Program-made: the position numbers and the translations under genes
Origin: a virus
Strand: one strand, 5' to 3'
Length of the DNA stretch: 20,021 bases
Virus record (IMG/VR): IMGVR_UViG_3300017917_002114
Coordinates: 1 to 20,021 of that record
Notes under the pieces: generated by a model
The model's input: only the letters and a program-made list of their open reading frames with translations
What the model was told of the DNA's origin: nothing
The model's database searches: none
Part shown: positions 1,231 to 20,021 of the stretch, piece by piece
Layout: each line of letters begins with the position of its first letter
Position numbering within the stretch: position 1 is the stretch's first letter

Positions 1231-1238
1231 TATTTACA
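1231..1238 (-). promoter_or_regulatory. Late-promoter-like box (TGTAAATA) of gp17
   Basis: Read on the minus strand this is TGTAAATA, a 7/8 match to the T4 late promoter TATAAATA. Only AAGTT (5 nt) separates it from the gp17 ATG, and it follows the U-tract of the upstream terminator after one or two bases. If initiation follows T4 spacing, the transcript would begin at or beside the start codon. Promoter function is inferred from the motif and its position. Confidence 0.6.
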
Positions 1239-1239
1239 G

Positions 1240-1267
1240 AAAAAAATAGGCTCCGAAGAGCCTATTT
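1240..1267 (-). terminator. Intrinsic terminator with UUCG tetraloop after the 230-aa gene
   Basis: A perfect 10-bp stem (1244-1253 with 1258-1267) encloses a loop that reads TTCG on the minus strand with a C-G closing pair, the classic stable UUCG tetraloop. The stem is followed on the minus strand by seven T residues (three of them shared with the stem). It lies 15 nt past the stop of the 230-aa gene and just before the gp17 promoter box, so it should insulate gp17 from upstream transcription. Confidence 0.92.
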
Positions 1268-3534: not shown

Positions 3535-3908
3535 GGAAGAATATTTCGTTGTATTTCGTCAGCCGGTAATTGATTCAATACTATGCCCAAACTACTGCTT
3601 TTAAATCTATTATAATTTAAAATTTCTGCAACAAGGCCGCTAATTTCTACATTTGTTAGGCCGCCAAGGGTATCTAAAATTTTTATTGCATTTAGTCCAT
3701 CTCTCTTAGCCTGTGATAAAATAACTATAGATGTAGATTCTGCTGCCATAGGCTGAAAGCCTCTCTTTTCAAAAAAAGCAGACATTGCAGTTAAAGTAGG
3801 GCCGTCTAATTCAATTGGACTTTCGTAGTAATTGTCAAAAAGTTTTACAGTTGCATCGGAGCTACTGGCGCTCGTGTCTATTGGAATATTATTATATAAT
3901 TTTTTCAT
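3531..3908 (-). CDS. Conserved T4-like phage protein of unknown function (125 aa)
   Basis: I do not know a function for this protein, though its pattern looks familiar from marine T4-like phages. It has a short polar N-terminus (MKKLYNNIPIDTSASSSDA) followed by an all-helical core: LTAMSAFFEKRGF, then SIVILSQAKRDGLNAIKILD, then VAEILNYNRFKSS, ending in IQRNILP. There is no signal peptide, membrane segment or metal site. It overlaps the gp54-like gene upstream and gp4 downstream by 4 nt each (ATGA at both ends), so it is firmly part of one translational unit of baseplate and head-completion genes. A small structural or assembly role is the simplest inference; an enzymatic role has no support. 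Confidence 0.8.
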   Translation of the reverse strand: MKKLYNNIPIDTSASSSDATVKLFDNYYESPIELDGPTLTAMSAFFEKRGFQPMAAESTSIVILSQAKRDGLNAIKILDTLGGLTNVEISGLVAEILNYNRFKSSSLGIVLNQLPADEIQRNILP

Positions 3909-5071
3909 GTTCCGCCGCCTACATTTCTAGATGTAGCCTGTGTATTCTTTGATTGGTCAATGTTTTTAAAAATTTCTATCCCTGCAGGAGCAAGTTTAGC
4001 GTTTGCTGCATTTTGAGCGTTGTCAACAAAACTTCCTGATCCTACTGCCGCGGCTGCAAAGACTCCATTAAGAACACTATAACCTTCTTGTTTTAAGCCT
4101 TCTTTTTTAATTGATCGTGCGTTCTGTGCTAAATTTTTTGTTTGTATTGCTACTCTTAATAAATCTGCACCGCTGAGAGGACCTTCTTGTGTTAGTGTAC
4201 CAAATATGTCAGATGCTCCTGCTAGTAAACCGCCGGGACCTAATATGCTCTTTGTTCCTCGACCTGCGATTGACAACGGGCTTGGACTATTATCGTAATG
4301 TTCTCGTTGGAATCCGGGATTTTCTTTTGAGATAGGAGTATTTGCAAGATCATAATAAACGGCCTCGTATGTAAGAGTCATTCGACTATCAAGTAATCTT
4401 TGCCCGTTAGTTTGATCTAAGTTTGCTGGACTCCATTCAGTAATAATAGGATTAATTAGTGTAACTGTATTAAATTTTTTCCTGTTCAATAGATATATTG
4501 TTATTGAATTAAAGAAAGGTTCTGTTTGACCGTTGTTTAAACCATATGCATAAGCACGAGTAGCATATTTTGTATCTCTAAAAGCCTCAGGAATAGATCT
4601 TTCCTGTCCTTTGGTATTACCTACAGTAGCGCCAGCATACCTACTATCTGCAAAATAGTATTGATAATAATTTTTCCATAAATTTGAAGTAACATTATTC
4701 ATGTCATCATGGAATGTTATGCCTATAGGATTGTAAGTTAATTTTGTTTGAATAACAGATTTTCTATTATACTGATTTACTGTTTCGGTGTTAATTGTTA
4801 TTCGAGGTTGGTCAACAGTCTTACAAAGTAAACCTACTTTAGATGAGTGTCTATTATACCAGGTATCATCTATTGCAGGAAATACTAATTTTTCTTTTAT
4901 TCTAGGATTAAAATTGAATACTACAAAATAGCTCCAACCAGCCTTAGGTGTTAGCCCGTAGTTTTCGTCTGCATATAGTCGTGCGGCATGTTTGTAGTCT
5001 TTGAGGTATCCTTGTTCTGCAAATACGCCGCCTGCAAAATTGGATAAAAATTGTGTAAATGCATTAGCCAT
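3905..5071 (-). CDS. 54: Tail-tube initiator / baseplate protein, gp54-like
   Basis: It probably sits on the baseplate hub and nucleates polymerisation of the gp19 tube. The resemblance to T4 gp54 is one of architecture. Strand-rich segments of the tube-protein fold are present: RITINTETVNQYNRKSVIQ, the motif LTYNPIGITFHDDMNNVTSNLWKNYY split over about 110-135, and INPIITEWSPANLDQ with MTLTYEAVYYD around 205-240. These are followed by a Gly/Ala/Ser-rich C-terminal tail (LGPGGLLAGASDIFG), as in gp54. It is 388 aa against 320 in T4. It starts 39 nt after the methyltransferase gene with no Shine-Dalgarno, only a late-promoter-like box 5 nt before ATG, and overlaps the next gene by ATGA. gp48 or another tube-fold baseplate protein is the main alternative. 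Confidence 0.62.
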   Translation of the reverse strand: MANAFTQFLSNFAGGVFAEQGYLKDYKHAARLYADENYGLTPKAGWSYFVVFNFNPRIKEKLVFPAIDDTWYNRHSSKVGLLCKTVDQPRITINTETVNQYNRKSVIQTKLTYNPIGITFHDDMNNVTSNLWKNYYQYYFADSRYAGATVGNTKGQERSIPEAFRDTKYATRAYAYGLNNGQTEPFFNSITIYLLNRKKFNTVTLINPIITEWSPANLDQTNGQRLLDSRMTLTYEAVYYDLANTPISKENPGFQREHYDNSPSPLSIAGRGTKSILGPGGLLAGASDIFGTLTQEGPLSGADLLRVAIQTKNLAQNARSIKKEGLKQEGYSVLNGVFAAAAVGSGSFVDNAQNAANAKLAPAGIEIFKNIDQSKNTQATSRNVGGGT

Positions 5072-5076
5072 AACTT

Positions 5077-5084
5077 TATTTATT
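5077..5084 (-). promoter_or_regulatory. Late-promoter-like box (AATAAATA) of the gp54-like gene
   Basis: The minus strand reads AATAAATA, 7/8 to T4 TATAAATA, followed by AAGTT and the ATG at 5071. The box, spacer length and even the spacer bases are the same arrangement as at gp17. No Shine-Dalgarno is visible. Functional assignment is inferred. Confidence 0.6.
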
Positions 5085-5825: not shown

Positions 5826-6452
5826 TTAACCGGTTGCTAATGTTCTTAGAGTTCTTCCAACAGCGCCACCGATACCGACTGGAGTATTAGATCCGTCAAC
5901 TTGGATAGCATTATCGTATTTGATTGTTAATGTGATATCAATTGGATCACTGCTCGAATAATCTGTGTTAGAGTACACAGTATTCTGCAAATAACAACCA
6001 GTTAATTCAAATGTTTCTAAAACTCTTGGTTCGTTAGCACCATTACCGCCGTCTAGGATTTCTATTCTTGTCAAAAACTTGTAATCTATGCCGCTAGATG
6101 CAGAGCTTTGTTCAAAAAAGTCGAACTGTTTCTGAATTTGCTCTCCAACTAATCTACTAACTTCACCTGTAGCATCATCTCTTACTACTAATGAAATGTC
6201 TGTCCAAGTGTAACGTCCTGCGTAATTAATCTTACTGTTATAAACGTGTAATTCGATGTTATCAAAGCTTACGCCTGGTCGTGTAACATTCATTACCTGT
6301 TTGGTTAGTTCAGTAGTAGGTTTAGATACTCCAAAGTTTTCTAGAGACACCCTAAATCTGTACTTCAACTTGGGCATTAATAAGCCCTGAGAAGTAGCGC
6401 TCTGACCTGTTGGTAGAGGTACTGTAAATTTACTTAAACTAGTGATTGCCAT
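5826..6452 (-). CDS. 19: Tail tube protein gp19
   Basis: Major protein of the inner tail tube through which DNA passes; hexameric rings stack inside the gp18 sheath. It is 208 aa (T4 gp19 163 aa). Features of the tube family are visible: the N-terminal strand LKYRFRVSLENFG, the conserved core VTRPGVSFDNIELHVYNSKI, the segment AGRYTWTDISLVVRDD, a central helix (LVGEQIQKQFDFFE) and the C-terminal strand IDITLTIKYDNA. Placement directly downstream of the sheath gene is the T4 order. A Shine-Dalgarno AAGGAG (6460-6465) lies 7 nt from the ATG, a late-promoter-like box lies just upstream, and a strong hairpin follows the stop. Confidence 0.95.
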   Translation of the reverse strand: MAITSLSKFTVPLPTGQSATSQGLLMPKLKYRFRVSLENFGVSKPTTELTKQVMNVTRPGVSFDNIELHVYNSKINYAGRYTWTDISLVVRDDATGEVSRLVGEQIQKQFDFFEQSSASSGIDYKFLTRIEILDGGNGANEPRVLETFELTGCYLQNTVYSNTDYSSSDPIDITLTIKYDNAIQVDGSNTPVGIGGAVGRTLRTLATG

Positions 6453-6473: not shown

Positions 6474-6481
6474 TATTTAAT
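6474..6481 (-). promoter_or_regulatory. Possible late promoter box (ATTAAATA) of gp19
   Basis: The minus strand reads ATTAAATA, 6/8 to the T4 late consensus, in the 31-nt gap after gp18 and 21 nt before the gp19 ATG. In contrast to gp17 and gp13 there is room for a leader with the AAGGAG site. The match is weak, and it would allow tube protein to be made independently of the long sheath transcript. Confidence 0.4.
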
Positions 6482-9400: not shown

Positions 9401-9819
9401 GCAGTATCTAACCAGTAAGTGCCTGAAGCAGGTTTTCCTTTTGGTTCAGATGCTGTAGGTTTTAATTCATCTAAGTCAACATCTGCTCTAACAACATACG
9501 CTCTTGAGCTTACACCTAAAACACTGTATGCGGCCTGTAAACCGTATTCATTCAATTCGCCGCCGTGTACTGGGTTAGAATTAGAATCAGTATAAAATAA
9601 AGGTGTACCAAACGTATCTGTTAGATCACGCTGGCTGGTTATCGTATAAACTTTGCCTACATTGCCAGGTAATGTACCAGCTGCGATACCGGTTCCAGAT
9701 GCATTATTTTTATTGGCTTTTGTTGCTACAAAAATTAAAGGTACAGTTCCAGGAGCGGCGGTTGTATAAAAACTCTCGTCTATAACTGTTACTTGTACTC
9801 CGGGTGAATTCAATGCCAT
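6484..9819 (-). CDS. 18: Tail sheath protein gp18, greatly extended
   Basis: Contractile sheath subunit. The N-terminal sheath signature is clear (MALNSPGVQVTVIDES, GTVPLIFVATKANK, SSRAYVVRADV), as is the C-terminal half from about residue 686: GMRLWNTRRSGNNVKMY, RRGGVDNVTAVGYL, LRRQLDLLARPFLFEPND and the closing VDIAIEPVKSVEFIYIPL. At 1111 aa it far exceeds T4 gp18 (659 aa). The extra length lies roughly between residues 120 and 686 and consists of Thr/Ser/Ala/Gly-rich beta domains: one resembles secreted/flagellar-type insert domains (ITINGVEITFVDV through LATLGLTAGTY), and others follow a G-x-x-W/Y ... W-V pattern (GTLWYSS, GDIWIDSSSS). These inserts would project from the tail surface. 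AAGGAG (9829-9834) lies 9 nt from the ATG, with a late-promoter-like box upstream. The frame is unbroken. Confidence 0.95.
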   Translation of the reverse strand: MALNSPGVQVTVIDESFYTTAAPGTVPLIFVATKANKNNASGTGIAAGTLPGNVGKVYTITSQRDLTDTFGTPLFYTDSNSNPVHGGELNEYGLQAAYSVLGVSSRAYVVRADVDLDELKPTASEPKGKPASGTYWLDTANSKFGIGEWDATNKVFINKTPLIINDTNKDVASLNNAPLSSIGSIGDYAVYITSQNDNAIFFKNADNVWVKVGTSIQSNFGAPIVAPTFTSNCWQTSWPVVIGTPTAVAVNSKITINGVEITFVDVSVNGICQAINTQMPQLGIGAKNIDGKVAIFADATAQSNLLAPQDGRVILANVTAGTLATLGLTAGTYGPVKLTIAPHYQFPQYATQGVATGSVYIKTTKPNSGAEWIVKYYNGSTQTWDTVSAPIYATTQAAIAGLDTTGGTNIPAGRIFVESNPDEGVGAAPNTPATAEFKVFRRTTSSPTTIATTVSTSTTFTPGSTFVVAETLANNPGLASAKTVTITTSSVAGFAAAVSAAGLTNVTATFDPATRVLTLGHKLGGDIYLTDGANAPLELVGFYNASLQTYTSNLYPTGTFATYPLRASNWKPVELLTTSVVASNSAPSTTPANGTLWYSSITDEVDILVHNGTTWVGYQNVYPNTSPAGPIIKATAPDKDTGQSDGTALVDGDIWIDSSSSENYGKNIYVWSSAQIKWVKQDLADNTSPSGWLFADARWGLTGTTSSSATIKDLLTSNFLDADAPDPTLYPQGMRLWNTRRSGNNVKMYKTDAIDITANSGQNKRFNNEIMDGSTGQTKYATARWVNATGNNADGSGKFGRVAQRGYVVKALKALIDTNQSIRDTDTLVLNLIACPGYPEAIQNMIGLNTSRGLTAFVVGDTPMRLASNGTDLRAWGSSTTALDNDDTGSVSYDEYMGMFYPSGLTTDNTGNTIMVPASHMILRTFAVSDQRSYPWFAPAGTRRGGVDNVTAVGYLKDGEFQQSPLPQNLRDVLQDVKINPVATLPGAGIVLFGQKTRAKNASSLDRINVSRLVAYLRRQLDLLARPFLFEPNDRITRNEIKQSAESLLLELVGQRALYDFIVVCDESNNTPSRIDRNELYVDIAIEPVKSVEFIYIPLRLKNTGDIAAGR

Positions 9820-9850: not shown

Positions 9851-9858
9851 TATTTATT
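9851..9858 (-). promoter_or_regulatory. Late-promoter-like box (AATAAATA) of gp18
   Basis: The minus strand reads AATAAATA, 7/8 to TATAAATA, 31 nt before the gp18 ATG. It would give a normal leader of about 25 nt carrying the AAGGAG ribosome site. It serves as the conventional comparison for the promoter boxes that abut start codons elsewhere in the window. Confidence 0.65.
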
Positions 9859-10921: not shown

Positions 10922-11680
10922 TTAGCCAATTACAAATGTTAACGGTTTGCCGCCATCTTTGTAATTGATTAGATCCATCTCTAGAGCTTCTATTTCGGCT
11001 TTGCCTTCGGCTTTGAGTGAAGTACCATTTAAACTTGTACCTCCCTGGGGGCTAGCGATAGTTGCAAATTTTTCACGGGCTTCGCCTAGCATGATTTTGC
11101 AGGTTGCTAGGGCATAATCTTTAAGCCATTGTCCTGAATAGGTATCCTGTAATAAATTAAAATCAGGCCTATAATTATATAACCAAAGTAGAACTTCTTC
11201 TTCCCCTCTAGGACGTTGCATTATTGTTAATTTTTTAGAAGTAGAATTCCATGTAAAATTAATGTCGCTACCAAACATTTTTCCTACTTGTTTTTGATAG
11301 CTAGCAAATGCATAGTAAGTAGCCAAACCGCCCATATTGCTAGAGCTTAAAAGATAAGTGTTTGTATAGGCTAAATTAAAAGGCTCAAAAACAGTTCCAC
11401 CTTCGCCGCCGCCGGACCTAGAACCTATAGTCCTGCGTAAAATTTGCCTAACTTCCATGACTTCGTGGCTCAGAGTGTACTCGTTTACATCTTGAGAAAA
11501 TGTTAAAAAACCAAAACTTTCTTCTGTAGCCGCAGAGCTACGCTGTCTAAATTTACCTAAAGCTCTATCTATTGCTATAGTATAATGTTTAGGATCAAGT
11601 TCAATGTCAATCATTCCATCGCCTAGCATGGCTTTGATATAATCGACGACTAGTTCTCGTTGTTGTATAGTATCACTCAT
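10922..11680 (-). CDS. 13: Neck protein gp13
   Basis: Head-to-tail connector protein that, with gp14, seals filled heads and forms the neck to which the tail attaches. Features shared with T4 gp13 are the N-terminal helix with IDIELDPKHYTIAIDRALGKF (T4: VELTPDQIYDCIQRALELY), VMEVRQILRRTIGS, a middle segment predicting FNSxxxKLxxM-like strands (FTWNSTSKKLTIM), and the strongly conserved C-terminal part WLKDYALATCKIMLG ... GTSLNGTSL ... EIEALEMDL ending in FVIG (T4 ends GILVG). It is 252 aa (T4 309). It diverges from gp14, with only 29 nt between the two start codons. No Shine-Dalgarno precedes the ATG; a late-promoter-like box lies 5 nt upstream. gp1 lies downstream in the same direction. Confidence 0.9.
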   Translation of the reverse strand: MSDTIQQRELVVDYIKAMLGDGMIDIELDPKHYTIAIDRALGKFRQRSSAATEESFGFLTFSQDVNEYTLSHEVMEVRQILRRTIGSRSGGGEGGTVFEPFNLAYTNTYLLSSSNMGGLATYYAFASYQKQVGKMFGSDINFTWNSTSKKLTIMQRPRGEEEVLLWLYNYRPDFNLLQDTYSGQWLKDYALATCKIMLGEAREKFATIASPQGGTSLNGTSLKAEGKAEIEALEMDLINYKDGGKPLTFVIG

Positions 11681-11685
11681 AATGA

Positions 11686-11693
11686 TATTTAGC
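11686..11693 (-). promoter_or_regulatory. Late-promoter-like box (GCTAAATA) of gp13
   Basis: The minus strand reads GCTAAATA, 6/8 to the T4 late consensus with the TAAATA core intact. It is followed by 5 nt (TCATT) and the gp13 ATG. It lies back to back, one base apart, with the plus-strand box of gp14. There is no ribosome site between box and ATG. Confidence 0.5.
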
Positions 11694-11694
11694 C

Positions 11695-11702
11695 AATAAA
11701 TA
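11695..11702 (+). promoter_or_regulatory. Late-promoter-like box (AATAAATA) of gp14
   Basis: AATAAATA (7/8 to TATAAATA) on the plus strand ends 7 nt before the gp14 ATG at 11710. The whole intergenic space to gp13 is 29 nt, so transcription from here would yield an almost leaderless gp14 mRNA. Inferred from motif and geometry. Confidence 0.6.
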
Positions 11703-11709
11703 CATCACT

Positions 11710-12918
11710 ATGCCAAGACTCTCCCTGTACCGCCCAGAAAAGGGCAATGATTTTAAATTTATCGATCGTGCTATAAACGAGCAGTTTCAAGTTGGCGGAA
11801 CTGATGTGTTTATTCATAAGTATCTAGGCCCCGTAAATCCTGCAGAGGGCGAATCTACGCCCGGTATTCCTAACAATACTAACCCTATTGGAGAATTAGG
11901 TATACAAGATTTGATTTTCATGGAAAACAGAGATAGACACTACGATTCCGATGTTTATCAAATTCGAGGCATTTATACTATGCAGGATATAGATTTTAAT
12001 CTAAGCCAATTTGGATTATTTCTGCAAAACGATAATGTTATGATAACTTTTCACCTAAGAGCAACTATAGATACACTAGGTAGAAAAATTATGCCAGGAG
12101 ATGTGTTTGAACTTCCTCACTTAAAAGATGAATATGCCTTAGACGATAGTATGGTTGCTCTAAAAAGATTTTATGTTGTCACAGATGTTAGCAGAGCAGC
12201 CACCGGATTCAGTCAAACTTGGTATCCTCACTTATTAAGAGCAAAATGCGAACCCTTGGTAGATAGTCAAGAATTTAAAGAAATATTAGATGCTCCTGCA
12301 GGAGACGGTAATAAAACGCTTAGAGATGTGTTAAGTGTGTATAACAAGAGTTTAGACATTACCAAATCTATAGTAGAACAAGCTGAGATCGATGCTCCAC
12401 TTAGTGGTTATAATAATATTAATTTGTTCACGATACCATTAGATGAAAATGGGCTAGTAAAATATGTTGATGCTAGTAATACAGAAATTACAGTAGACTC
12501 AGTTACTACTGGCACTATTGATGCTACTACAGTTTTAGGAACTCCTGAGAAAAATATCTATGTAGGTTATCTTACAGATGACGGAGTTCCACCAAATGGG
12601 GCTCCATATAGTTTTGGTATAAGTTTTCCTTTGGCTCCTACACAGGGACAATTTCATCTAAGAACAGATTACTTTCCTAATAGACTATTTAGATGGGATG
12701 GCTCTAAATGGATCAAGTTTGAAGATAATGTTCGAATGACTATAAATCAATTAGGAACAGATGCTACAGCAACCGGCGAAAGATATGATGGAAAACCTGT
12801 AAGGCTGACACAGAGAGGTACCTTTGTTAACAATGATACTACTGCAACTATTGGAGGAAAAATTGTACCTCAGAAACAGGCTCTATCTAAAATTTTAAAA
12901 CCACAGGCGGATAATTAA
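11710..12918 (+). CDS. 14: Neck protein gp14, with C-terminal extension
   Basis: Neck component acting with gp13 in head-tail joining. The N-terminus MPRLSLYRPEKGNDFKF and the core (GGTDVFIHKYLGP, IQDLIFMENRDRHYDSDVY, FNLSQFGLFLQ, MPGDVFELPHLKDEYALDD, LKRFYVVTDVS, FSQTWYPHLLRAKCEPLVDSQEF) match the gp14 type seen in marine T4-like phages as I recall them. T4 gp14 (256 aa) shares the general outline (MQVQDEVTLSIN..., GDLIYFP). Here the protein is 402 aa: residues about 290-360 form an added beta module (GQFHLRTDYFPNRLFRWDGSKWIKF) and the Lys-rich tail may be flexible. No Shine-Dalgarno is seen; a late-promoter-like box abuts the ATG. Its stop overlaps the gp15 ATG by one base (TAATG). Confidence 0.88.
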   Translation: MPRLSLYRPEKGNDFKFIDRAINEQFQVGGTDVFIHKYLGPVNPAEGESTPGIPNNTNPIGELGIQDLIFMENRDRHYDSDVYQIRGIYTMQDIDFNLSQFGLFLQNDNVMITFHLRATIDTLGRKIMPGDVFELPHLKDEYALDDSMVALKRFYVVTDVSRAATGFSQTWYPHLLRAKCEPLVDSQEFKEILDAPAGDGNKTLRDVLSVYNKSLDITKSIVEQAEIDAPLSGYNNINLFTIPLDENGLVKYVDASNTEITVDSVTTGTIDATTVLGTPEKNIYVGYLTDDGVPPNGAPYSFGISFPLAPTQGQFHLRTDYFPNRLFRWDGSKWIKFEDNVRMTINQLGTDATATGERYDGKPVRLTQRGTFVNNDTTATIGGKIVPQKQALSKILKPQADN

Positions 12919-14342: not shown

Positions 14343-14764
14343 AAGAAATTATTTGCAGTGGTGGTTTATTTTTAGCTAGAGATACTAAAAGATTTTTATT
14401 TTTATTAAGAACTCAGGGAAAGACAGCTAATACATGGGGATTTGTTGGGGGTAAAAAAGAACCTATAGATCTTACACCCTACGATACTTTAAATAGAGAA
14501 GTATCTGAAGAAATAGGAAAAACTCCTCCTATTAAAAAAATTATACCCCTTGAACAATATCTAAGCAACGATCAATCATTTAAGTATAACACCTATATAT
14601 TAATTGTTGACAAAGAGTTTACACCTTCTTTAAACATGGAACATTCTGGATATGCTTGGTGTAGCTTTGATCATTATCCAAAACCTCTACATCAGGGTGT
14701 TAAAGTTACATTGAATAATAGATTTATAAAAGACAAACTACAGCTAATATTAGACTTGATATAA
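14339..14764 (+). CDS. Nudix hydrolase
   Basis: Hydrolyses nucleoside diphosphates linked to another moiety; the natural substrate is not evident (oxidised nucleotide, ADP-ribose, NDP-sugar or RNA cap are all possible). The Nudix box is recognisable at residues 38-60: GGKKEPID ... REVSEEIG, with the metal-binding REVSEE (Glu54, Glu57, Glu58) intact. The first conserved Glu is replaced by Asp44, and the spacing to Arg53 is one residue longer than the canonical GX5EX7REUXEEXGU. I place the start at ATG 14339, which overlaps the gp15 TGA (ATGA), rather than the in-frame TTG at 14324; the resulting 141 aa fits a minimal Nudix fold. Its 3' end overlaps the opposing SDR gene by 15 nt. Confidence 0.88.
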   Translation: MKEIICSGGLFLARDTKRFLFLLRTQGKTANTWGFVGGKKEPIDLTPYDTLNREVSEEIGKTPPIKKIIPLEQYLSNDQSFKYNTYILIVDKEFTPSLNMEHSGYAWCSFDHYPKPLHQGVKVTLNNRFIKDKLQLILDLI

Positions 14765-15550
14765 ACTAAGTCCCTGTTCTAAACCTTGAAGTTTAATTGG
14801 AATCAACATCAGCTTTGTTCCGTTACCTGTTAAATTATTATTGCCTTTGTTTTCTACTATAACTTTACTGCTATCTAATCCGTGCATATCACAGAATTTT
14901 TTAGCCAAGGTACTTAATCTATATTTTTCATGATAAACACAGTTAATGTCTCGAACCGAATGTATATTGTATAAAAAATGCTTTAGTATTTCTACCAAAT
15001 CATCTAAGCTAATATAATCAAAATATATATCGTTAGATATTGTTATGGTTTTTTGTAAAGCAAGTTTTTTAAAAAATCGAGTTTCTTTTTCTGTGTGATG
15101 AAATACGCCAAATAATCTAAAATTATAAAAATTATCAGTTTCTTTTATTACTCTAGCAATTAAATTTTTAGCTAAACCGTAACTAGTATTAGGCAGATAA
15201 TTGACCAAACTTTCTTCATGTATGAATCTATTATCTTTTGATAGATCATACTCATAAGCTGTTCCTAAATTAAAAAATCTGTTAAATTTTAATCTATTAT
15301 TATATAGATTTTTAAACATTAATAAATTTTCATCGAGATATTTAGGATCTGTACTAAAAAGTTGTTCTCTCCCAACTAATGCCGTATGTATTACAACATC
15401 AAATGTATTTTTATTAAAAAAATTATTAACTTCTTCGGTGTTTAATAAATCTAATTGTTCCTTGCCAACAGCCAATATATTATTAGCTCTTAAATTTTTT
15501 GCAAGATAAGAGCCTACAAATCCTTTGCCGCCGGTAATTAGAACTTTCAT
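14750..15550 (-). CDS. NAD(P)-dependent sugar-nucleotide reductase/epimerase (extended SDR, RmlD-like)
   Basis: The Rossmann glycine motif TGGKGFVG at 6-13, an Asp/acidic strand end (QLDLLN), DVVIHTALVG at 51-60, the serine/threonine position in NLGTAYEY (94-101) and the catalytic Tyr124-x-x-x-Lys128 in SYGLAKN identify an extended SDR of the NAD-dependent epimerase/dehydratase group. FDYI-type substrate-loop residues follow (YFDYISLDDLVEIL). At 266 aa it is shorter than GalE-type epimerases (about 330) and near RmlD or GDP-fucose-synthase reductases (about 290-310). It directly follows RmlC with a 4-nt ATGA overlap, which supports a reductase finishing a dTDP-6-deoxy-L-hexose. GDP-fucose synthase-like activity is the alternative. 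It is very AT-rich compared with the structural genes, suggesting recent acquisition. Confidence 0.82.
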   Translation of the reverse strand: MKVLITGGKGFVGSYLAKNLRANNILAVGKEQLDLLNTEEVNNFFNKNTFDVVIHTALVGREQLFSTDPKYLDENLLMFKNLYNNRLKFNRFFNLGTAYEYDLSKDNRFIHEESLVNYLPNTSYGLAKNLIARVIKETDNFYNFRLFGVFHHTEKETRFFKKLALQKTITISNDIYFDYISLDDLVEILKHFLYNIHSVRDINCVYHEKYRLSTLAKKFCDMHGLDSSKVIVENKGNNNLTGNGTKLMLIPIKLQGLEQGLSLYQV

Positions 15551-16095
15551 AAATCAAACTTATAACAGTTTTCCCAACTTGGGTTATTTAGATCACGATC
15601 ACTAATAATAAGATTATCTTTAATTTTCCAATTAATGTTTAAAGATTTATCATTGTAATCTACCCCACATTCGTTGTTAGGAGCATGGTATTCATCAACT
15701 TTATATCCTACAAACGTGTTTGGCTCTAGGGTTACAAATCCGTGATATAAACCTTTAGGGACAAACAGTAATTGGGGAGTTTTCGAATCTAATGTTACTG
15801 AAACGTGCTGTCCATATGTTGGAGAATTTATTCTGGCATCTACTACAACATCTTGTATAGACCCTGTTAGAACCATAATTAATTTAGCTGGGACAAATTT
15901 ACTATTTTGAGAATGCAATCCTCTTAGTGTCCCTTGTAGGTTGTTATAACTCCAAAATTCGAAAATAAAATCTGTATCAATTCCAAAATCTTTTAACCAA
16001 TTTTCTTTATAGGTTTCGGAAAACCATCCTCTATTATCAATTTTTCTTTCCAAATTGATTAATTTTAATCCGTGTAGAGATAATTCTTGCATCAT
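15547..16095 (-). CDS. rmlC: dTDP-4-dehydrorhamnose 3,5-epimerase (RmlC-like)
   Basis: Cupin-fold epimerase acting on dTDP-4-keto-6-deoxyglucose, normally third in dTDP-L-rhamnose synthesis. At 182 aa it has the normal length. Signature segments are DNRGWFSETYK (20-30), GTLRGLHSQ (55-63) with the catalytic His61 and Arg59, Lys71, GSIQDVVVDARINSPTYG (78-95), LFVPKGLYHGF (110-120), Tyr131 in GYKVDEYHAP, NECGV, and SDRDLNNPSW with Asp168 in the position that pairs with the catalytic His. All key residues appear present, so it is probably active. No Shine-Dalgarno precedes the ATG pair at 16095, only an AT-rich GATAAATT box. The SDR gene overlaps its stop. RmlA and RmlB are not in the window, so the substrate would come from the host or from phage genes elsewhere. 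Confidence 0.93.
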   Translation of the reverse strand: MMQELSLHGLKLINLERKIDNRGWFSETYKENWLKDFGIDTDFIFEFWSYNNLQGTLRGLHSQNSKFVPAKLIMVLTGSIQDVVVDARINSPTYGQHVSVTLDSKTPQLLFVPKGLYHGFVTLEPNTFVGYKVDEYHAPNNECGVDYNDKSLNINWKIKDNLIISDRDLNNPSWENCYKFDL

Positions 16096-18571: not shown

Positions 18572-20021
18572 TTATTTTACTACGCATTCAACTAGACTGT
18601 CTTCACCGTCTTCGAGAGCATAAGCAAACGGTTGCTTACCGTTATTTACAGCCCAACCTTGCCCATTGTCTGTAGGCCATATGGCATCACCTTTCTTAAC
18701 TTTGCCCTTGATTTTAACAGGAACTCGACCTAGCAATGCTATAGCTTGGCCTTCACTACTGCTATTCATTAGATAAGCTGGTTTAGCAGAAATAACACCA
18801 AGTACATAGTCATTGTTACCTGTAACCATTGTAGCTTCATTAGGACCACCAACCTTAACTACTGTTCCTACAGAATATTCTTTGTCTGTTAGATACTTTT
18901 CTGCCACGTCAGCGTATTGCGCCGAAGTTGCAGTTCCTCTAAAGAACCTAGCATATACGTCATTAGAAGCATTAGTTAGATATAAATCTGCAGATGGTAA
19001 ATTATATCTACTAGGACTTGCCTGATATTGCAGATAATAAGTGTTGGTTGCGCCTAGATATACATAGCCGCCGTTAGCCCTTAACTGGTTCGATGTTACT
19101 GTTGTACCGTCAAATGTAAAGGCCGCGCTAGTAGCTAATATGTTACTAGCATTCTTATACAGAACTTGGTTAGCAGAACCAACTGTAGCTAAGTTACCTG
19201 CAGAACCTTGGAAGCCAATATTACCTGTACTACCTTGGAAACCAATAGCACCGATACTTCCAGTCCATCCTTGAATACCTTGGCTACCCCTAAATCCAGC
19301 CGAACCTTGGAAACCTGTTGGACCAACGCCGCCTGCAGAACCTTGGAAACCTTGGCTACCTCTAAATCCAGCACTTCCAGTAAATCCAGAACTTCCTAAG
19401 AAACCTGCTGATCCTTGGAATCCAACTCCGCCTGCACTACCCCGATAACCAGCAGATCCATAATAACCGGGAGAACCAAAATAACCCACCGATCCAGTAT
19501 AACCTGCTGAGCCCCTATACCCTTCTGAACCTCTAAATCCTGATGATCCTTGGAAACCGATTGATCCAGTATATCCTGCAGAACCCCCATATCCCGGTCC
19601 AGCGGATCCTTGGAATCCAACATTACCTGTACTACCTTGGAAACCTACTGATCCTTTAAAACCTTCCGAACCTCTAAAACCTTCGCTACCAATATAACCT
19701 GCAGATCCTCTGTAACCAATGCTTCCTTGATAACCAGCAGACCCCTGGAATCCGACGCCAGAGCTACCTTGGTAACCAGCACTACCCCAATAGCCGATTG
19801 ATCCAGTATATCCTGTTGAACCTCTATAACCCTCTGATCCTCTAAAACCTTCTGAACCAGAATAGCCTGCGCCCGCTGATCCTTGATAACCAGCTGATCC
19901 TCTATAACCCTCTGAGCCTCTATAACCTGCTGATCCATAGAAACCTACAGCACCAATACTTCCCGCATAACCTGCTGAACCGGTATATCCTGCAGAACCA
20001 TAATAGCCCGCTGATCCTCGA
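18572..20021 (-). CDS. Collagen-like tail fibre protein (N-terminus beyond right edge)
   Basis: The frame is open to the right edge; the apparent start at 19489 is only a GTG (Val) inside the repeat, so the gene continues leftward from outside the window. In-window residues 1-277 are about 90 Gly-x-y triplets, mostly alternating GS(A/E/Q/I) and G(Y/F)(R/Q/T), with three two-residue interruptions (GA, GV, GP). After residue about 277 comes a non-repetitive C-terminal part: a short strand region (NQVLYKNASNILATSAAFTFDGT), then ARFFRGTATSAQYADVAEKYLTDKEYSVGTVVKVGG and VLGVISAKPAYLMNS, ending KGDAIWPTDNGQGWAV ... SLVECVVK. The latter recalls the C-terminal trimerisation/autoprocessing domains (Peptidase_G2-like) of phage fibres, a tentative link. 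It is followed by the 807-aa fibre-like gene. Confidence 0.85.
   Translation of the reverse strand, partial: RGSAGYYGSAGYTGSAGYAGSIGAVGFYGSAGYRGSEGYRGSAGYQGSAGAGYSGSEGFRGSEGYRGSTGYTGSIGYWGSAGYQGSSGVGFQGSAGYQGSIGYRGSAGYIGSEGFRGSEGFKGSVGFQGSTGNVGFQGSAGPGYGGSAGYTGSIGFQGSSGFRGSEGYRGSAGYTGSVGYFGSPGYYGSAGYRGSAGGVGFQGSAGFLGSSGFTGSAGFRGSQGFQGSAGGVGPTGFQGSAGFRGSQGIQGWTGSIGAIGFQGSTGNIGFQGSAGNLATVGSANQVLYKNASNILATSAAFTFDGTTVTSNQLRANGGYVYLGATNTYYLQYQASPSRYNLPSADLYLTNASNDVYARFFRGTATSAQYADVAEKYLTDKEYSVGTVVKVGGPNEATMVTGNNDYVLGVISAKPAYLMNSSSEGQAIALLGRVPVKIKGKVKKGDAIWPTDNGQGWAVNNGKQPFAYALEDGEDSLVECVVK
19190..20020 (-). repeat. 18-bp tandem coding repeat (collagen-like GSxG[YF]x)
   Basis: About 46 degenerate copies of an 18-bp unit (minus strand, roughly GGATCAGCAGGTTATAGA) encode the hexapeptide GSxG(Y/F)x. 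Third positions and the x residues vary, so the copies are diverged rather than recently amplified. The repeat continues beyond the window edge. Only about three prolines occur in 277 residues. Confidence 0.9.

Follow-up and report, generated by a model that had tools for sequence, protein, structure and literature searches.

Paired Late-Promoter Boxes beside the Start Codons of gp13 and its Divergent Neighbour Point to Leaderless mRNAs for Virion Genes in T4-Type Jumbo Phages

In an uncultured T4-type jumbo phage, gp13 and a virion gene in the position of gp14 diverge from a gap of only 29 nt that holds two late-promoter boxes back to back. Very probably these boxes are gp55-type late promoters that drive leaderless mRNAs, and thereby part of a second mode of late expression that extends over the genome. 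The two genes look like the clearest case of what appears to be a genome-wide habit. Leaderless genes and T4-type late promoters are each already known; their systematic combination for virion genes would be the new element. No description of a gp55-type phage with systematic leaderless mRNAs for virion genes was found in the open-access literature searched.

According to the proposed mechanism, the phage late sigma factor and RNA polymerase would open each box and start 4–5 nt downstream of it. The gp13 mRNA would begin with its own AUG, the mRNA of the gp14-position gene would reach its AUG after 0–3 nt, probably as ACUAUG, and ribosomes would initiate on the 5'-terminal AUG without a Shine-Dalgarno sequence (SD). 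One mode of late expression would consist of a box, 4–8 nt and an AUG without SD (terminase, gp13, the gp14-position gene, a tube-like gene, a baseplate wedge subunit and others), the other of a box followed by 17–45 nt with an SD (sheath, tube, fibres and others).

Results and Discussion

Boxes and Genes of the Window

The window, i.e. the whole stretch of 20,021 nt that was analyzed, is a 20-kb virus record. The phage is an uncultured T4-type jumbo phage, with RaK2, PA5oct and Atu_ph07 among its relatives. No match at the DNA level was found among phage records. Its gp13 is about 37–47% identical to the gp13 of PA5oct, Atu_ph07, RaK2-type and CBB phages. A cyanophage origin, first suggested by the motif, was rejected because the nearest relatives are jumbo phages of the RaK2/PA5oct/Atu_ph07 type. 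The gap between the divergent genes (11681–11709, 29 nt) reads AATGATATTTAGCCAATAAATACATCACT and is organized as follows:

10922–11680, minus strand: gp13, neck / head-tail adaptor Ad2, 252 aa, PHROG 211; predicted leaderless
11686–11693, minus strand: putative late-promoter box of gp13, GCTAAATA; 5-nt spacer TCATT to the ATG at 11680–11678
11695–11702, plus strand: putative late-promoter box of the gp14-position gene, AATAAATA; 7-nt spacer CATCACT to the ATG at 11710
11710–12918, plus strand: virion structural protein in the gp14 position, 402 aa, PHROG 11591; predicted leader of 0–3 nt

Only a single base, 11694, separates the boxes. GGAG, AGGA and GAGG were sought ahead of both genes in the window and are absent for both. 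The back-to-back arrangement, the spacers of 5 and 7 nt and the lack of an SD, all given in a preliminary description of this DNA, were thus confirmed in the sequence. The same description had named two major neck proteins, and this wording can be kept in part. A T4 gp13-like identity of gp13 follows from PHROG 211 and from T4 gp13 chains in a PDB profile search (E 6.6e-20). The name gp14 is a positional one only, as similarity to T4 gp14 could not be found by sequence: the 402-aa protein gave no alignment with T4 gp14 (hhalign probability 0.1%) and no match in the PDB profile search, and its AlphaFold model, with a pLDDT of 43, is too poor for fold comparison. Nor is "major" appropriate, the T4 neck proteins being low-copy connector proteins. 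The gp14-position proteins of Atu_ph07 and Phosso, orthologues with 40–41% identity to that of the window, are likewise encoded divergently from gp13. Within the tail region the window also carries two sugar-nucleotide genes at 14750–16095, one NAD-dependent epimerase/RmlD-like and one for a dTDP-4-dehydrorhamnose 3,5-epimerase. A collagen-like repeat fibre protein with a weak match to Peptidase_G2 (autoproteolytic) is encoded at 18572–19489, its GTG start being called inside a longer repeat.

The short layout occurs at four genes of the window, namely gp13, the gp14-position gene, a tail-tube-like gene and terminase, and further boxes belong to the leadered mode:

1231–1238, minus strand: box TGTAAATA of the terminase large subunit (terminase PHROGs), 5 nt before the ATG at 1225
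5077–5084, minus strand: box AATAAATA of the tail-tube-like gene (3905–5071, PHROG tail tube), 5 nt before the ATG at 5071
6474–6480, minus strand: box TTAAATA of gp19 (tail tube, 5826–6452), 21 nt before the ATG, SD AAGGAG; leadered mode
9851–9858, minus strand: box AATAAATA of gp18 (tail sheath), 31 nt before the ATG at 9819, SD AAGGAG; leadered mode

Among the five large contigs of the clade (G001–G005), the 5-nt geometry of the tail-tube-like gene is repeated in the homologues of G002–G005, and the short spacer of terminase in those of G001–G005. The loose box TATAAATA, with at most one mismatch, is not enriched in the window (59 found, about 70 expected). TAAATA-N5-ATG occurs four times against 0.54 expected, whereas TAAATA on its own is underrepresented (15 found, 41 expected), as it is in large clade contigs and isolates (about 0.45–0.7 of expectation). 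Since the position relative to the ATG is enriched, a chance origin of the boxes is unlikely, even though a loose box match is uninformative.

Conservation of Spacing

By protein similarity 160 IMG/VR loci were collected, from which near-copies were removed before spacer scoring. In all 151 loci that hold both genes, the window included, gp13 and gp14 are divergent. In 107 of 110 scored relatives, whatever the gap length, exactly 5 nt lie between the gp13 box (TAAATA) and the ATG, and 106 of these 107 short-spacer loci lack an SD-like word. For gp14 the spacer measures 4–8 nt in 104 loci, mostly 7 nt (7 or 8 nt in 94 relatives), and 103 of the 104 are without SD. ATG is the start codon at all short-spacer loci of both genes. 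The distance between the boxes varies from 0 to 40 nt and once reaches 483 nt, whereas each box keeps almost the same distance to its own ATG. The hexamer is nearly invariant across relatives while most spacer bases drift; exceptions are a pyrimidine at −1 in 106/106 spacer-5 gp13 loci and an A at −3 in 76/76 spacer-7 gp14 loci. The preliminary description had asked whether box and box-to-ATG distance persist while other bases drift, and the relatives answer this in the affirmative, also at differing gap lengths.

To what extent the layout is used elsewhere in the genome was surveyed in G001–G005 (1155 genes). With gene starts other than those of gp13 and gp14 taken from a simple longest-ATG ORF caller, by which individual genes may be miscalled, and with a simple word match as SD test on contigs that are mostly partial genomes, the boxed genes comprise 93 with a spacer of 3–9 nt (one with SD), 8 with 10–16 nt and 129 with 17–45 nt (81 with SD). 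The bimodality is significant for the SD (p = 4e-25) as well as for the 10–16 nt gap (p = 8e-10). This near-empty class would correspond to leaders of about 5–11 nt and matches the leader class missing in Lactococcus cremoris, where leader lengths are likewise bimodal and leaders of 4–14 nt were not found (PMC10986495).

Short-spacer genes include those for terminase, gp13, the gp14-position protein, a tube-like protein, a baseplate wedge subunit and peptide deformylase. Sheath, tube and fibre genes are leadered, mostly with an SD, which is present in 83 of 88 leadered sheath genes and 18/18 leadered tube genes. We infer that the leaderless layout gives low-copy assembly proteins a lower output than the leadered one, a low-copy versus high-copy pattern drawn from a handful of identifiable genes, major capsid and portal not among them. 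For comparison, short spacers number two in T4, where an SD-like word accompanies each, while Syn9 has none and P-SSM2 six; genome-wide counts in related isolates are three in PA5oct, none in RaK2 and four in 400 kb of Atu_ph07. The layout is therefore, as had been proposed, unlike the T4 norm.

A second divergent pair with back-to-back boxes was observed in G002 (L196:13610-14887); its gap measures 30 nt, the spacers are 7 and 6 nt long, and one side belongs to PHROG 36119. The peptide deformylase genes at L190:4407-4901 (G002) and L179:10242-10760 (G001) have short box-to-ATG spacers of their own.

Predicted Transcription Starts and Alternative Explanations

The T4 late promoters (gp55/gp33/gp45) carry TATAAATA at −13 to −6 (PMC2988020, PMC1524935), and the +1 positions given here are transferred from this geometry. 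The clade boxes resemble them in the TAAATA core and the variable first bases, and the clade has a gp55 homologue. With the box at −13 to −6, a 5-nt spacer would therefore place +1 of gp13 at the A of its ATG (11680). The 7-nt spacer of the gp14-position gene predicts a leader of 2–3 nt and thus probably not strict leaderlessness. Its 5' end would be A11707 (5'-ACUAUG) or C11708; 5'-ACUAUG is probably the right one, because the invariant A at −3 falls 4 nt after the box. Of the two leaderless mRNAs originally postulated, that of gp13 is hence retained with a predicted leader of 0 nt, and that of gp14 would have to be amended to a leader of probably 3 nt. Both 5' ends and the leaderless translation are predictions from box geometry and base conservation.

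A pyrimidine at −1 was found in 39 of 42 spacer-5 genes of the five large contigs, compared to about 47% in other genes (p = 3e-10). This lends indirect support to a start at the ATG, since it is expected of a pyrimidine-purine initiator, but it could instead reflect a preference in start-codon context. Among SD-led genes of these contigs, an initiator of this kind is only weakly apparent.

Further indications come from terminators. A terminator-like hairpin with a T run lies within 70 nt upstream of 15 of the 93 short-spacer genes compared to 25 of 903 box-less genes, and at short-spacer genes such hairpins usually end directly before the box. The window provides an example at terminase:

1244–1267, minus strand: intrinsic-terminator-like hairpin AAATAGGCTC-TTCG-GAGCCTATTT with T run; 5 nt separate its end from the terminase box downstream

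The same succession of hairpin, box and ATG is repeated at the homologous genes of G001–G005. With a hairpin directly before the box, upstream transcripts should stop there, and no room would be left for a leader. This bears on the possibility that the boxes are real but the working gp13 and gp14 mRNAs come from promoters further upstream in the opposing gene and are leadered and SD-less. Sigma-70-like matches do exist in the opposing genes, though in a number (62) below the shuffled mean of 69. In 98 loci, no second conserved TAAATA was found over 320 nt ahead of gp14 in the opposing gene; beyond the proximal bin of 20 nt, which holds 92 occurrences, there are 6 in the next bin and 3 far upstream. 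Together with the terminators between upstream gene and box at other short-spacer genes, and with the empty 10–16 nt class and the fixed 5-nt spacer, which upstream promoters leave unexplained, this makes such an origin quite improbable.

A/U-rich stretches near starts often aid initiation, and TAAATA next to the ATG might accordingly act as a translation enhancer in a longer mRNA instead of a promoter. The motif is, however, oriented and exact, and unrelated permuted hexamers (without 5-base overlap with the motif) lack such a peak, with 6–19 genes in the 3–9 nt class compared to 93 for the motif. It also occurs 17–45 nt upstream of SD genes in clade and isolates, and the clade encodes a late sigma factor. 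The latter, of the gp55 type, was detected in five of six clade contigs tested and in all isolates tested; the test was made on clade contigs, the 20-kb window itself being too short. The homologues in G001–G004 and G006 match phrog_12791 (E about 1e-85 to 1e-90) and phrog_234 (E about 1e-25), and none was found in G005, a fragment. An enhancer is on these grounds highly improbable. That the inverted TATTTA...TAAATA pair, which forms an inverted repeat at the window locus, is an operator (palindromic protein-binding site) or a hairpin and not two promoters is barely credible, as the inter-hexamer distance varies widely with each hexamer's distance to its own ATG kept, for which reason the palindromic operator was rejected, and as many genes outside divergent pairs have a single hexamer at the same spacer, and leadered genes have it 17–45 nt upstream.

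Start Codons and Translation

The reading as two late promoters with leaderless mRNAs gains from loci in which the gp14 box has moved away. Where it lies at least 19 nt from the start, an SD is present in 10/10 loci, and most loci with a box beyond 80 nt have one, too. At loci with a distant box the start codon is usually AUU (ATT starts in L006, L011, L013, L026, L040, L052, L058, L067, L103 and L157). Of the 13 SD-led gp14 copies that the tree set contains, 11 start with a non-AUG codon, nine of them with AUU. The ATT occupies the exact place of the ATG in the leaderless homologues, a few bases after AGGAG, and for seven of the ten loci listed the stretch from the preceding in-frame stop to the AUU is free of standard start codons. 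Non-AUG starts of gp14 are confined to SD-led copies, and AUU starts as a general habit of the clade were not found outside gp14. On one quick gp13 tree, and with a number that recombination could inflate, the SD-led form corresponds to 11 changes, at least 6 of which are forced by well-supported branches. Since leaderless initiation needs AUG (PMC4611024), the gain of SD and AUU upon displacement of the box supports a leaderless AUG at the short spacer.

The preliminary description had called for a host or phage mechanism dedicated to leaderless translation. This is not required, as 5'-AUG mRNAs are translatable by ordinary bacterial ribosomes (PMC4611024). Among candidate aids, no S1-domain phage protein was found, and bS21 was dismissed as a general explanation with only one of 15 clade contigs (G005) encoding it. 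Phage-encoded bS21 is located at L205:2974-3132 in G005 and occurs in the genomes of PA5oct, Atu_ph07, Phosso, Vibrio 2.275 and SCTP-2.

IF3 antagonises both leaderless and AUU initiation (PMC4611024). An IF3 gene (PF00707) is present in five of seven related isolates, RaK2, CBB, Atu_ph07, Phosso and Vibrio phage 2.275 (L163, L164, L165, L166, L167), but was found in none of 15 clade contigs, including one of 353 kb. It was not found in PA5oct, SCTP-2, T4, Syn9 and P-SSM2 either, so its absence alone does not predict leaderless genes; PA5oct, T4, Syn9 and P-SSM2 lack it and yet are mainly leadered. The antagonism to both start types and the distribution between isolates and clade contigs hint at a late infection during which effective IF3 would be low. 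Leaderless AUG and SD-led AUU mRNAs would then both be usable, the two gp14 forms would interchange in evolution and the layout would set the dose of assembly proteins. We regard this extension as rather unlikely. The bacterial gene infC starts with AUU. Like several SD-led gp14 variants it combines AUU initiation with an SD; different from infC, AUU is restricted here to one form of a virion gene, the alternative led by an SD, and the gene has an AUG close to the 5' end in all other cases.

Relation to Known Systems

In T4 and Syn9 the box lies at least 12 nt before nearly all boxed starts, in T4 usually with an SD, whereas about 40% of the boxed genes in the clade have 3–9 nt and no SD. An ATAAATA late motif was predicted in the jumbo phages CBB and GAP32 (PMC5259590), and the same motif stands before structural genes in relatives of the clade. 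Unlike the short gp13 spacer of the clade, the inspected gp13 and sheath spacers in CBB, RaK2 and PA5oct amount to about 20 nt or more. Atu_ph07 and Phosso share the divergent gp13/gp14 pair with back-to-back late boxes, but each box-to-ATG spacer there exceeds 20 nt and comes with an SD-like sequence. The pairing of the boxes may have preceded the leaderless layout.

Leaderless mRNAs are known from bacteria (Lactococcus cremoris, mycobacteria) and from lambda cI; the mRNAs predicted for the clade are alike in having a 5'-end AUG and no SD. Those of the clade, as judged from sequence alone, would differ in the use of a phage late sigma factor and in serving virion assembly genes. If this holds true, the clade offers a large natural data set on the co-evolution of promoters and translation starts, including the repeated switching of the same gene between a 5'-terminal AUG and an SD with AUU. 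In these jumbo phages, which are widespread and uncultured, many starts would be questioned or wrongly placed by gene finders that expect an SD, and the box-to-ATG distance would be usable to predict them.

In a search for the host, no gp14 relative was detected in the bacterial genome collection, and a tmRNA-tag scan came back empty. Contig G001 (353 kb; L172:5875-6376, L173–L176, L186) contains 49 predicted tRNA genes and a permuted tmRNA (RF04321, 106.9 bits; tag ANDSVYALAA). Two clade contigs carry anticodon-CUA tRNAs, which are amber-reading (Pyl according to ARAGORN), at L205:3210-3285 and L173:18311-18387; in clade contigs with such tRNAs TAG is still an ordinary stop codon of low frequency.
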